64,000 nt of DNA from Sporanaerobium hydrogeniformans (GTDB taxonomy: Bacteria; Bacillota; Clostridia; Lachnospirales; Cellulosilyticaceae): contig NZ_PEDL01000001.1 in assembly GCF_002735925.1 (NCBI RefSeq), positions 496,001 to 560,000 on the forward strand. The letters are read 5' to 3'. Each line of letters begins with the position of its first letter. Positions within the stretch are counted from its first letter, which is position 1. The position numbers and the translations under genes were made by a program. Under the pieces are notes generated by a model. It made no database searches. It was not told where the DNA came from and saw only the letters and a list, made by a program, of their open reading frames with translations. Positions 27,798 to 32,369 of this stretch are shown in pieces.

Positions 27798-28669
27798 AAA
27801 AGACACTAAATGCCTATAGTGAGCAAATGAATCAATTGATGGGGAAAGCCATTTGTCTCCCACATGGTCCTTTTAGTGAGCTTCACGAGGCCATGCGCTA
27901 TAGTCTTAATGCCGGTGGTAAGCGTATTCGGCCTGTTTTGATGCAGCTTTGTTATGAGGCAGTAGGTGGTAAAGAAGAAATTGAGAGCTTCTTAATGGCT
28001 ATTGAGATGATTCATACCTATTCACTTATTCACGATGATTTACCTGCTATGGATGATGATGACTTAAGAAGAGGGAAACCTACCAATCATATGGTTTTTG
28101 GTGAAGCAACAGCCATTTTAGCAGGGGATGCTCTTTTAACAGAAGCTTTTCAAATAATGCTCAGTGATGCACTGAGGCATGGGGGACTAGAACGTATACG
28201 TGCTGCCCATATTTTAAGCGAAGCCAGTGGTATGGGAGGGATGATTGGTGGACAAATCTTAGATATGGCAAGTGAAAATAAAACCATTGATTTAGCCACT
28301 TTAGATTGTATTCAACTTCATAAAACAGGTGCACTTATTGCTGCAGCAACTAAAATGGGGGCAGTTTTAGGTGGTGGAGGTAGCAAGGAAATAGCTGCTT
28401 TAGAAGCTTATGGTAAGTATATAGGGAAGGTATTTCAAATCGTAGATGATATCCTAGATGCTATTTCTACAGCAGAAGAGCTAGGTAAACCTGTGCATAG
28501 TGATGAAAAAAATGAAAAAAATACTTACTTAAGTTTTTACTCCATTGAAGAGAGCTATGCTATTGCAAAGGCGTTAACAGACAAAGCACTTAAGCTTCTT
28601 GAACAGATACCAGGGGATACCAGCTTGTTAGCAGAAATTGCTGAGACACTTATAAAAAGAAAAAATTAG
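27794..28669 (+). CDS. ispA: Polyprenyl (farnesyl/geranyl) diphosphate synthase
   Basis: This 291-residue prenyltransferase condenses isopentenyl diphosphate with allylic diphosphates. The first Asp-rich motif is in IHDDLPAMDDDDLRRGKP near residue 82, the second is DDILDAI near residue 215, and GGKRIRP near residue 36 binds the diphosphate. The short-chain family is clear; the exact product length (C10, C15 or C20) is not certain from motifs. It shares an operon with dxs, which supplies the precursor pathway. Confidence 0.94.
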   Translation: MKKTLNAYSEQMNQLMGKAICLPHGPFSELHEAMRYSLNAGGKRIRPVLMQLCYEAVGGKEEIESFLMAIEMIHTYSLIHDDLPAMDDDDLRRGKPTNHMVFGEATAILAGDALLTEAFQIMLSDALRHGGLERIRAAHILSEASGMGGMIGGQILDMASENKTIDLATLDCIQLHKTGALIAAATKMGAVLGGGGSKEIAALEAYGKYIGKVFQIVDDILDAISTAEELGKPVHSDEKNEKNTYLSFYSIEESYAIAKALTDKALKLLEQIPGDTSLLAEIAETLIKRKN

Positions 28670-28678
28670 GAGGAAGCG

Positions 28679-29128
28679 ATGAACTACATTGCACAAATCA
28701 GTAGAAATTCAGTTCTATGGGTGTCTATTTTAAGTTGGTTTACGGCTCAAGTTTTGAAAATAGTGATTACACTTTTTGAAGAACATCGTTTAGACCTTAA
28801 ACTTTTTTTTGCATCAGGGGGGATGCCGAGTTCACATAGTTCTTTTGTTACAGCCTTAGCTGTTAGTATAGGGCAACTTTATGGCTATGACAGTCCATTT
28901 TTTGCAATAGCGGCTGTTTTTAGTTTTATTGTTATGTATGATGCGGCACATGTACGTTTGCAAGCTGGGAAACAAGCCGTTATGATTAATCAAATTATTG
29001 AAATATTAGGTAATCCTAATTTAAATCCGGAACAACGTTTAAAGGAAATATTAGGTCATACACCTGTGCAAGTAGCGGCTGGTGCCATACTAGGTGTAGT
29101 CATTGCTCTCATTTTCTTTGGTGTATAA
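28679..29128 (+). CDS. Divergent PAP2 family membrane protein (DUF212, YuiD-like)
   Basis: This 149-residue membrane protein has the conserved GGMPSSHSSFVTALA near residue 49 and MYDAAHVRLQAGKQA near residue 92, which match the DUF212/acid phosphatase-like family. The SSH and R/H residues resemble the PAP2 phosphatase motifs. In this operon a role in dephosphorylating a polyprenyl diphosphate is plausible but unproven. It lies between ispA and the OLE RNA region, and a GGAGGAAG site precedes the ATG. Confidence 0.88.
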   Translation: MNYIAQISRNSVLWVSILSWFTAQVLKIVITLFEEHRLDLKLFFASGGMPSSHSSFVTALAVSIGQLYGYDSPFFAIAAVFSFIVMYDAAHVRLQAGKQAVMINQIIEILGNPNLNPEQRLKEILGHTPVQVAAGAILGVVIALIFFGV

Positions 29129-29169
29129 AGACAGTTGAAAAAATAAATTGAGACTGCTATAATGTGTTA

Positions 29170-29805
29170 AAAGCGACTTATGACACGCTTTTCAAAAGAT
29201 AAGATGCAGTATTCTAGTCAAGCTGGCATGTTTTGAAGACGGGCCTAAAAATCCGTTTTAGGGCATATCGATGAAGTTCCTGGTGTTGGCTTGTAGCGCC
29301 CCGTTATGGGCTGATGCTGGGGGTTAAGGTTTGAGGGCGATCCATAAGGGCATATGGGCGTTGACCCTTTTACCGTGGAGACCTATGTTTGTGCTTATTC
29401 CTATGGGAATAATGTATGACTTAGGATGAAACCTACCATGCGGTATAGGCTGTGGGTAGAGTAGCCTGCCTTGAGTGATGGTGGGAGGACACTCATTTAC
29501 CTTTTTCTTTCTCGGCCAAGAAGGGAGGAGGATTGTGGGTAGAAACCTAATTCGCAAAAGAGGATAGGAACATGATAGCTTGCGCGAGGAAAACTCCTAG
29601 ACTGTTTCAAAGGAAGGTCTTAAATGGATTACAGTGTGGTTTCAAGGCGATCTGGCTTGGCACTTAGGTGCTGGGGCTTCTTTAAAGGGAAACCACTCAT
29701 TTGGTGACAAAAGAGTAGAGGCTTGGGAAAACCTGCTAGACCATATGCCACAAAATTTACATTTTAGGCTGTCTCATCTTTTGAAGAGTGGGTGATAAGT
29801 CGTTT
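29170..29805 (+). ncRNA. ole: OLE RNA (ornate large extremophilic RNA)
   Basis: There is no plausible gene here for about 640 bases, yet the DNA is GC-rich relative to its surroundings and full of GNRA-like and paired blocks. The ends pair: CGACTTAT (29174-29181) with ATAAGTCG (29795-29802), CAC (29184-29186) with GTG (29792-29794), and the 13-mer 29188-29200 with 29776-29788 apart from one G-U pair. This forms a long closing stem. The length (about 630 nt), the location between ispA and dxs, and the following gene for a membrane protein of the OapA type are all characteristic of OLE RNA, a membrane-associated RNA of Gram-positive anaerobes and extremophiles. The identification rests on context, size and closing stem; I could not run a covariance search. 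Confidence 0.88.
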
Positions 29806-29825
29806 ACAAAAGGAGCAAAAAAGAA

Positions 29826-30413
29826 ATGCCAAAACCCAAAAAAGCAAAAGTCAAATTTAAAAAGGTAAAGCTTAAAAAGCAATCTATAAAAACCTTTGAG
29901 ATTATTATAGGTGTTACTTTTATCATAGCGACTTCGTTTAGTTATATTTTTGAGGTACTTATGGCAGATGTGCCCCTTTTGGTGGCTTTTCTAATGCTTG
30001 TTAGTATTATTATTATAGGAATTATTTGTGACGGTATTGGTAATGCCGTTGTATCTGTTGATGAAGTAACCTTTCATTCCATGGCAGCCCAAAAAGTAAA
30101 GGGTGCTAAGGAGAGTATCAAACTGGTGCGAAATGCTCCTATGGTAGCCAATATTTTTAATGATGTCATAGGTGACATTGCAGGGATTATATCAGGGAGT
30201 ACAGGGACTGCCATTGTCCTGGCTCTAGAAGAAGGCTTTGGTCGTAAATCCATCCTTTTATCCATTGCAATGAGTGGCTTTATTGCTGCTATGACAGTCG
30301 GTGGTAAAGCATTAGGTAAGAGTTATGCCATTATGTATTCACGCTACATTGTTTATTATGTAGGTGTATGCCTTTACTATATGAAGCGGCTATTTAGTAG
30401 AAAAAAGAACTAG
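29826..30413 (+). CDS. oapA: OLE-associated membrane protein OapA
   Basis: This 195-residue protein has a very basic start (about 14 Lys in the first 25 residues) and about four membrane segments (residues 28-65, 118-135, 140-160, 165-180). Conserved-looking motifs include CDGIGNAV near residue 61 and NDVIGDIAG near residue 110, resembling DUF21/CNNM-type transporters. In Bacillus halodurans the homologue binds OLE RNA and localises it to the membrane. The gene lies 21 bases after the RNA end with an AAAGGAGC site. A basic N-terminus fits RNA contact, although that is inference. Confidence 0.88.
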   Translation: MPKPKKAKVKFKKVKLKKQSIKTFEIIIGVTFIIATSFSYIFEVLMADVPLLVAFLMLVSIIIIGIICDGIGNAVVSVDEVTFHSMAAQKVKGAKESIKLVRNAPMVANIFNDVIGDIAGIISGSTGTAIVLALEEGFGRKSILLSIAMSGFIAAMTVGGKALGKSYAIMYSRYIVYYVGVCLYYMKRLFSRKKN

Positions 30414-30444
30414 AATGACAATCAATGGGGTTGTCATTTTTTTT
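30414..30444 (+). terminator. Intrinsic terminator between oapA and dxs
   Basis: AATGACAA (30414-30421) pairs with TTGTCATT (30431-30438) across a 9-base loop, followed by a T run to 30444. The stem is AT-rich, so termination may be partial. It starts right after the oapA stop codon. Confidence 0.6.
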
Positions 30445-30494
30445 AAGTGATAGATGGAAAAGAAAGACAGATTACAGTAAAAGTGAGGCGTCGT

Positions 30495-32369
30495 ATGCTA
30501 AAATTATTAAAACAAATTAAAGGACCAGAAAATTTAAAGGCCTTAAAAGAAGAGGAACTAATAGAACTTGCTAAAGAGGTGAGGCAATTCCTTGTTCAAT
30601 CTCTTGCACAAACAGGAGGACATTTAGCCTCTAATCTCGGTGTCGTAGAACTTACCATTGCACTACATTATGTGTTTAATTCTCCGCAAGATAAGATGAT
30701 ATGGGATGTAGGTCACCAAGCGTATGTGCATAAATTACTTACGGGTAGGCGTAAAGGTTTTCAGTCCCTCAGACAATTTGGAGGAATGAGTGGTTTTCCT
30801 AAAACAAAGGAGAGTGCTCATGATGTTTTTGAAACAGGGCATAGCTCTACATCTATCTCAGCAGCCCTTGGAATGGCAGTGGCTAGAGATTTAAAGGGAG
30901 AAGACCATCAAGTGATTGCAATTATTGGGGATGGTGCCTTAACAGGTGGTATGGCTTTTGAAGCACTTAATAATGCAGGGCGTGGACATACTCACCTTAT
31001 TGTTATTTTAAATGATAATGAAATGTCTATTTCGAAAAATGTAGGGGGCATGGTAAAGTATTTAACGAAGCTTCGTTCTAGCAGAGATTATTTAAGAGCT
31101 AAAGAAGGTGTAGAAGATGCTTTAAATCAAGTGCCAGTTATTGGCGAGCATATGGTACACACCATTAAACGTACAAAAGGTAAATTCAAAAGCTTTTTAA
31201 TTGAAAATACACTTTTTGAACAATTGGGTGTTACCTATCTAGGACCTATTGATGGACATTCTTATGAAGAACTTCTAGATATTTTGGAGAATGCAAAGGG
31301 GATGAAGGGGCCTGTTCTTATTCATGTAAAGACTAAGAAGGGCAAAGGTTACCGTCTAGCGGAAGAAAATCCTTCGGCCTTCCATGGAGTTTCCTCCTTT
31401 AATATTGCAACAGGAGAAATAAGTAAAAAATGTGAAGGAAAAAGCTTTTCTTCTGCTTTTGGTGAAGCCATGTTGCAAATGGCTTCTGAAAGAGAGGATG
31501 TGGTAGCTATTTCTGCAGCTATGCCAGAGGGAACAGGGCTTTTAGAGTTTTCAAAAGCATATCCTCGTCGCTTTTTTGATGTAGGGATAGCAGAACAACA
31601 TAGTATTACTTTTGCAGCAGGCTTAGCTGCGCAAGGTATACGACCTGTAGCCGCTATTTATTCTTCTTTCTTACAACGTGCCTATGATCAAATTTTACAT
31701 GATGTTTGTTTGCAAAACTTGCCCGTTATTTTGGGGATAGATAGAGCGGGGCTTGTAGGTGAAGATGGAGCAACGCATCAAGGTCTATATGATATAGCCT
31801 ACTTAAGTAGTATGCCTAATATGCATATTTTAGCTCCTAAGGTACCAGAAGAAGTAGAGGGGGCTATCCGTTATGCATTACATCTTAATGCACCTGTTGC
31901 TATCCGTTATCCAAGGGGAACGGCTACCCTAGAAGTAGCTTATCATCATGACTATAAAGACGTAAGTTTGAAAACCTTAAAAGCTGGTCATACTAGAGCT
32001 ATATTAGCTTGTGGGAAGTTTGTAGGCTTAGCGCTTGAGGTAAGTCAATTACTTGAAGAACAAGGAGAGAGTTTGGCTGTTATAGAAGCACCTTGTTGTT
32101 ATCCTCTTGATAAGGAAGGGCTTTTAAAGATTGCTCAAGGATATGACTACCTCTTTACACTAGAAGATGGTATACTATTAGGAGGCTTTGGTGAGAAGGT
32201 CTTTAGCCTACTTATTCAAGAAGGCTATACTATAAAAGGCCATCAGTTCGGATATGAGAGTGGCATTGTTGAGCATGGAGATATTGCTCATTTATTAGAA
32301 AAAGAAGGTCTTACACCTCAGAAGATCAGTGTGCAAATACAAAGATTATGTGGGAAAGAGAGCAAATAG
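30495..32369 (+). CDS. dxs: 1-deoxy-D-xylulose-5-phosphate synthase
   Basis: This is about 624 residues. The thiamine-diphosphate enzyme joins pyruvate and glyceraldehyde 3-phosphate to start the MEP isoprenoid pathway. Features include GGHLASNLGVVELT near residue 45, WDVGHQAYVHKLLTGR near residue 75, the cofactor motif GDGALTGGMAFEALNNAG near residue 150, and the transketolase-like region FDVGIAEQHSITFAAGLA near residue 370. The frame is open upstream to a GTG at 30447, but the ATG at 30495 follows GTGAGG with a 6-base spacing and matches the usual N-terminus. Confidence 0.95.
   Translation: MLKLLKQIKGPENLKALKEEELIELAKEVRQFLVQSLAQTGGHLASNLGVVELTIALHYVFNSPQDKMIWDVGHQAYVHKLLTGRRKGFQSLRQFGGMSGFPKTKESAHDVFETGHSSTSISAALGMAVARDLKGEDHQVIAIIGDGALTGGMAFEALNNAGRGHTHLIVILNDNEMSISKNVGGMVKYLTKLRSSRDYLRAKEGVEDALNQVPVIGEHMVHTIKRTKGKFKSFLIENTLFEQLGVTYLGPIDGHSYEELLDILENAKGMKGPVLIHVKTKKGKGYRLAEENPSAFHGVSSFNIATGEISKKCEGKSFSSAFGEAMLQMASEREDVVAISAAMPEGTGLLEFSKAYPRRFFDVGIAEQHSITFAAGLAAQGIRPVAAIYSSFLQRAYDQILHDVCLQNLPVILGIDRAGLVGEDGATHQGLYDIAYLSSMPNMHILAPKVPEEVEGAIRYALHLNAPVAIRYPRGTATLEVAYHHDYKDVSLKTLKAGHTRAILACGKFVGLALEVSQLLEEQGESLAVIEAPCCYPLDKEGLLKIAQGYDYLFTLEDGILLGGFGEKVFSLLIQEGYTIKGHQFGYESGIVEHGDIAHLLEKEGLTPQKISVQIQRLCGKESK

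Follow-up and report, generated by a model that had tools for sequence, protein, structure and literature searches.

A complete OLE RNA in an apparent relative of Cellulosilyticum, with loop covariation that may reflect pairing between two OLE molecules

The window, i.e. the whole stretch of 64,000 nucleotides analysed here, contains an OLE RNA that is confirmed, in terms of sequence, as genuine, complete and a well-formed member of the known class. The best overall explanation, to which I assign a probability of about 0.88, is that this full-length RNA would be the RNA part of a membrane-bound OLE ribonucleoprotein in a clostridium related to Cellulosilyticum, acting by the mechanism proposed below. 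Few structured bacterial RNAs that lack a known biochemical function are as large as OLE, for which a membrane-spanning dimer has been proposed. Beyond class membership, the present analysis adds a covariation between two loops, a putative ole-oapA cassette in this lineage, and two apparent scars of joint loss.

A full-length OLE RNA next to oapA

Scanned against Rfam at the gathering score, the whole window gave one match, OLE (RF01071), on the forward strand at 29185-29791. The match scored 447.2 bits (cmscan, E 5e-128) against a gathering score of 50 and covers the model end to end (1-616 of 616). The host genome (3.74 Mb, 64 contigs, 99.66% complete) has one OLE match. An OLE RNA had been claimed at this place by a sequence-only reading, and the covariance-model check bears the claim out, as does the length: from the predicted start near 29170 to the end of the terminal stem at 29803, the RNA would be about 634 nt, close to the length of about 630 nt given for the OLE RNA of Halalkalibacterium halodurans (PMC9723947). 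The fold of RNA 29173-29803 has an energy of -225.3 kcal/mol (z -6.5 against 20 shuffles).

The ends of the RNA form a long helix. The same reading had described a stem of 29174-29200 with 29776-29802; this stem is real but longer, pairing 29 of the 32 positions of the 5′ strand (29173-29204, forward strand) with the 3′ strand (29772-29803), with mismatches at 29182, 29185, and 29201. In the minimum-energy fold, 26 of the 32 positions pair with the opposite strand. The helix also covaries across the family's 10 OLE loci, where 271 of 315 cells pair (86%) and 8 positions have double changes; in six control versions with the helix slid by 1-3 positions, 124-171 of 315 cells pair (39-54%) and 1-2 positions are doubly changed. 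The Rfam OLE model begins 12 bases inside this helix. In other families of the order, the OLE ends also pair; at the 10 of 21 loci that could be placed by motif (11 were missed), the runs judged by eye are very roughly 9 to 20 long. The G.G mismatch 29182/29794 is present in all 10 family loci with invariant pairs on both sides, and it might position a nuclease or a protein.

The gap between the stop codon of the upstream gene (29126-29128) and the start of oapA (29826) is 697 bases; within it, the ORF list (minimum 60 aa) has a single entry, a minus-strand frame of 77 aa. The gene-free stretch of about 640 bases that the sequence-only reading described directly before an OapA-type gene is present. 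The genes around OLE are, in order, nusB, xseA, xseB, ispA, a DUF212 gene, OLE, oapA, dxs, an FtsJ/S4 protein gene, nadK, argR, recN, spoIVB, and spo0A; I take the FtsJ/S4 protein 3′ of dxs to be tlyA-like. The earlier gene order ispA-OLE-oapA-dxs gains one member: the DUF212 gene (divergent PAP2; 28679-29128) separates ispA from OLE. A DUF212 gene also precedes the dxs locus in related genomes both with and without OLE. The dxs gene most likely starts at the ATG at 30495 (30495-32369, forward strand). The longest frame starts at the GTG at 30447, but the equivalog match begins at residue 22 of this longer frame and a GAGG lies upstream of the ATG, which favours the latter. Loci L096-L099 concern a second dxs-like gene, which is 51-54% identical in its N-terminal part in three genomes of the family (G003, G004, and G005); G006 shows a gene of this type alone, 50% identical.

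Two relatives of OapA came up when named genomes were searched by pattern. The one with the higher identity (76%) belongs to Candidatus Cellulosilyticum pullistercoris, which NCBI places in the Cellulosilyticaceae of the Lachnospirales. Thus, the host appears to be a relative of Cellulosilyticum in the family Cellulosilyticaceae and, judging from its relatives, is apparently an anaerobe. A literature search for Cellulosilyticum together with OLE RNA found no paper, and kin of the host may well be among the 2,822 Bacillota OLE hits of a published species set (PMC11332333).

The locus has the features of an OLE member: the full-length model match, the oapA neighbour, and P4, P5.1, P6.1, and P9 loops that are kept and complementary. 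It shares with that of H. halodurans the full-length match, the position beside oapA and near ispA and dxs, the genes for OapA, OapB, and OapC, and a promoter of its own, which is a prediction here and a published report there (PMC9723947). It differs in the P5.1 and P6.1 loops described below, in the DUF212 gene between ispA and ole and in a terminator-like hairpin after oapA.

Might the stretch be nothing more than a structured leader that regulates oapA in cis and is never freed as a separate RNA? OLE lies directly 5′ of oapA, the ribosome-binding site of oapA (29810-29815) begins 6 bases past the terminal helix, and the stretch between OLE and oapA yielded no terminator. These features would suit a leader. 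However, the stretch matches in full a family that is known from H. halodurans as an abundant, separate RNA of about 630 nt (PMC9723947); transcription of OLE independent of its operon also occurs in that species, and the loops for dimer contact and OapB binding are kept. A leader that does nothing else is therefore very improbable, and a separate OLE RNA is the reading followed here.

Covariation between the P5.1 and P6.1 loops

Two loops with published dimer contacts are nearly invariant. The A-run of the P4 loop (29247-29251) is CTAAAAATC in 30 of 31 rows and CTAAAAATT in the other, and the GGCC palindrome of the P9 loop (29514-29517) is present in 31 of 31 rows. The P13 loop GGUGAC (29703-29708) reads GG[TC]GAC in all 31 rows and lies in the published OapB-binding region (PMC12054373). 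The P5.1 and P6.1 loops are less usual. The P5.1 loop is GCCCA in most OLE RNAs, commonly with AAUGGC in P6.1; here, the P5.1 loop is GCCCC (29298-29302) and the P6.1 loop (AAGGGCAU, 29346-29353) contains AAGGGC. All five loops are on the forward strand.

In published cryo-EM models, L5 of one OLE RNA pairs with L6 of the other (PMC12286853, PMC12412911, PMC12054373, PMC12265935), a contact named bridge B2 (PMC12286853, PMC12412911). In the passages of these papers covered here, the evolutionary support described concerns B1 and B3, with none given for B2. Literature searches on this point yielded, beyond these papers, PMC12248019 and the abstract PMC12585600. A published OLE set comprises 8,585 sequences (PMC12286853).

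I found that the last base of the P5.1 loop, 29302, covaries with 29348 in the P6.1 loop. Among 251 OLE loci, 29302 is A in 221 and C in 27, and three loci have a shorter loop. Opposite C, 26 of 27 rows have G at position 29348, the remaining locus (L012) having a deletion there. Opposite A, this position is T in 144 rows, A in 38, C in 23, and G in 16. The loci comprise a first set of 171, including the 60 best-scoring ones of class and phylum searches and 80 chosen by hand at about one per family, and 80 that were fetched once the pattern had been seen. The later 80 were taken from the upper portion of the phylum list, and weak hits are under-represented in the sampling as a whole. In these 80 alone, G stands opposite C in 6 of 6 cases and opposite A in 5 of 74. 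When the 143,916 column pairs of the first set are ordered by corrected mutual information, the pair takes rank 102, and the two columns are each other's best partner by about twofold; with all rows, it takes rank 103 of 144,991. Fourteen of the 101 higher-ranked pairs are not evident base pairs, pairing in less than 75% of rows; 29302 and 29348 pair in 75%.

Shared descent was considered with a FastTree tree built without the two hairpins from 247 rows (the three short loops and L012 were left out). On this tree, the P5.1 base changes 10 times, and C occurs in 11 families. Six independent pairs of loci differ in P5.1 across supported branches; P6.1 differs in the same way in 5.7 of them on average and in the opposite way in none (sign test, p 0.03, range 0.03-0.125). 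Conversely, 18 pairs differ in P6.1, and P5.1 follows in 5.5 and is unchanged in 12.5, G often arising opposite A. Since 61 of the 221 A rows have an unpairable A or C opposite and 16 have G, the P5.1-P6.1 pair is not strictly required.

These results may be taken as evolutionary evidence for pairing between two OLE molecules. The covariation could instead reflect sequence relatedness or a contact within one molecule: a single family supplies 10 of the 27 C rows, the independent changes are few, and covariation alone is blind to the difference between intra- and intermolecular contacts. I regard this as unlikely, given the spread of C over 11 families, the one-sided outcome of the six independent pairs, and the 6 of 6 matches in the later set. 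Moreover, the cryo-EM models set the P5.1 and P6.1 loops face to face across two molecules (PMC12265935, PMC12412911).

With pairing between molecules as the preferred reading, it seems rather probable that selection acts on OLE dimerisation in living cells. The P5.1-P6.1 contact would then come in two classes, A with mostly U and C with G, in which C is matched by G wherever P6.1 is intact, and the classes should dimerise poorly with each other. The same grade of confidence is meant to include the view, discussed below, that ole and oapA form a self-contained transcription cassette separated from dxs in this lineage.

A contact between domains 1 and 2, which would oppose the membrane-spanning model, was considered and rejected: the best cross-domain couplings rank 120 or lower, are clade-like, and have no Watson-Crick exchange. 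Between domains 1 and 2, columns 29307 and 29474 are coupled with 29641-29645, again in a clade-like manner and with no base-pair exchange.

Promoter, hairpin, and joint loss of ole and oapA

A promoter of ole is predicted at 29135-29163 on the forward strand (TTGAAA-17-TATAAT with a TG before the -10 element; 11 of 12 consensus matches). It would start transcription at about 29170, a few bases 5′ of the terminal helix. The number of promoter-like sites in 28600-30700 is in no clear excess (8 against 5.5 in shuffles). The same elements occur at the same place in 8 of the 10 family loci and are absent in L005 and L010. The upstream sequence was long enough at 248 of the 251 OLE loci. At 143 of these, a site with at least 10 of 12 matches lies within 90 nt upstream, about 10.6 being expected (4.3% of shuffles), and in 120 of these 143 a TG precedes the -10 element. 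Since an own promoter has already been reported in H. halodurans (PMC9723947), the conserved predicted promoter extends a known fact.

A terminator is predicted after oapA on the forward strand (30412-30446), consisting of a hairpin (30412-30440) and a T tract; the longer dxs frame mentioned above begins immediately past this tract. Two terminator-like sites were found in 28600-30700, which is not above chance (shuffle mean 1.4), so the case for the terminator rests on conservation. The stem letters, TG[A/G]CAATC ... G[A/G]TTGTC, are nearly invariant in the 10 family loci. In a survey of 90 loci with enough downstream sequence, 86 of which have an oapA-like frame, a hairpin with a loop of up to 30 lies within 120 nt 3′ of oapA in 10 of 10 family loci versus 8 of 76 others; the shuffle expectation is 2.5% (mononucleotide), or about 2 of 76. 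Narrower scans with loops of 3-8, which miss long-loop hairpins, gave 9 of 10 family loci versus 0 and 2 of the 76. Among the eight hairpins outside the family, those of L048, L049, L052, and L127 have stems of 8-14 pairs and the other four of 6-7. At most loci outside the family, the next frame follows close behind oapA, as judged by eye. In L048 and L049, which belong to another family of the order, the same stem letters (GACAATC ... G[A/G]TTGTC) and a T tract follow oapA.

Is this hairpin a plain terminator? It may also be a regulated element acting on dxs, such as an attenuator or a protein-binding site. Its stem letters are almost invariant in the family despite only three G-C pairs, it persists in two genomes without ole and recurs in two loci of another family, and it is unique in the genome: searches of the window and of the host genome for further copies gave one match each, the known one. 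On the other hand, a stem, a short loop, and a T tract are ordinary features, and the common letters are explicable by shared descent. Family members without OLE have terminator-like hairpins with unlike letters before dxs, as seen by eye (e.g., G021 and G023), so a plain terminator suffices. A regulated element is thus rather doubtful, and I prefer the plain terminator. These hairpins of OLE-free members also mean that the stop before dxs may predate ole or be independent of it.

In summary, ole and oapA look like a cassette with its own promoter and its own terminator, both predicted from sequence. The sequence-only reading had taken a terminator after oapA to suggest a separate balance between the expression of OLE and oapA and that of dxs. 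The hairpin is conserved in the family, which makes separate control plausible.

The two genes also seem to disappear together. OLE was found in 10 of 24 family genomes, and the same 10 have a full-length oapA; a fragment of oapA is also present in G007. In that genome, pieces of the start and of the end of oapA come directly after the DUF212 gene, with the hairpin and dxs behind them, and a search of the locus for a promoter or a piece of OLE found none. G017 retains the promoter, the 5′ helix strand, and a piece of 72 bases around P5.1-P6.1, all fused to the oapA end and the hairpin. Thus, a joint loss of ole and most of oapA appears to have taken place in two related genomes, although their assemblies are 86% (G007) and 75% (G017) complete and misassembly is possible. 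Defective OLE genes in species without OapA have been mentioned (PMC11332333).

Protein partners and a possible mechanism

The oapA gene (29826-30413, forward strand) encodes an OapA-type membrane protein of 195 aa with three hydrophobic peaks, a basic N-terminus (11 of the first 25 residues are K/R), and a DxxxD motif at residues 113-117. It has a weak match to CNNM (PF01595), a likeness to the CNNM-domain Mg2+ transporters (MpfA, CorB/CorC); as its 20.3 bits are below the cut-off of 28.4, OapA was not filed as a member of that family. A structural likeness of H. halodurans OapA to CNNM transporters has been published (PMC11332333). In contrast to these transporters, OapA has the DxxxD motif and is without the CBS and CorC domains, which a separate MpfA-type protein of the genome has.

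The genes of the other two partners lie elsewhere in the genome. OapB (93 aa; G000:C44:138933-139211) is encoded between map and infA and matches PDB 7k9b, 'OLE-associated protein B' (E 2e-8). OapC (94 aa), a YbxF-type L7Ae protein, is encoded between rpoC and rpsL; its best PDB matches are 3v7e and 4lck (YbxF; E 4e-13). A full OLE ribonucleoprotein, as had been proposed for this organism, is thus supported, at the level of genes only.

In family genomes at least 90% complete, OapC was found in 7 of 7 with OLE versus 1 of 8 without, as assigned by frame length alone (97 or 127 aa for OapC, 105-121 aa for YlxQ). The OLE-free genome with OapC is G006. Since the sole dxs seen there is just 50% identical, the main dxs locus, and perhaps OLE with it, is probably absent from that assembly. 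OapB is present in 7 of 7 such genomes with OLE and in 7 of 8 without. Its identity to the OapB of the host is 82-88% in the six other OLE genomes, 84% in G006, and 45-56% in the six remaining OLE-free genomes that have it; the lower identity could be due to lost constraint or to mere distance. A full CNNM protein was found in 24 of 24 family genomes. An anticorrelation of OLE and MpfA has been described across Bacillota, with one copy allowed in OLE species (PMC11332333); it was sought in the family and was not seen there, the mean number of full CNNM proteins being 1.5 with OLE (n=10) and 1.5 without (n=14; Mann-Whitney p 0.76).

The proposed mechanism is as follows. Transcription would start at the own promoter near 29170, with read-in from the upstream operon also possible, run through oapA, and largely stop at the hairpin behind it. 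The OLE RNA of about 630 nt would be freed from the ole-oapA transcript at the terminal helix, a cut of the RNase III type being a guess, and the remaining oapA mRNA would keep its ribosome-binding site just behind the helix. Two OLE copies may then pair via the P4, P5.1-P6.1, and P9 loops, the P5.1-P6.1 contact being C-G here where most OLE RNAs would offer A-U. The dimer would sit on OapA, the CNNM-like membrane protein. By analogy with H. halodurans, in which OLE is linked to responses to Mg2+, cold, alcohol, and poor carbon sources (PMC11332333, PMC12265935, PMC9723947, PMC10898510), the complex may support the same responses in this organism.

The dimer is known from protein-free cryo-EM; the loop covariation makes its presence in cells testable by single-base changes. 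The two loop classes would offer naturally orthogonal OLE pairs. If the joint losses are true, the genomes concerned, with close relatives that keep both genes, would be natural knockouts for comparison.
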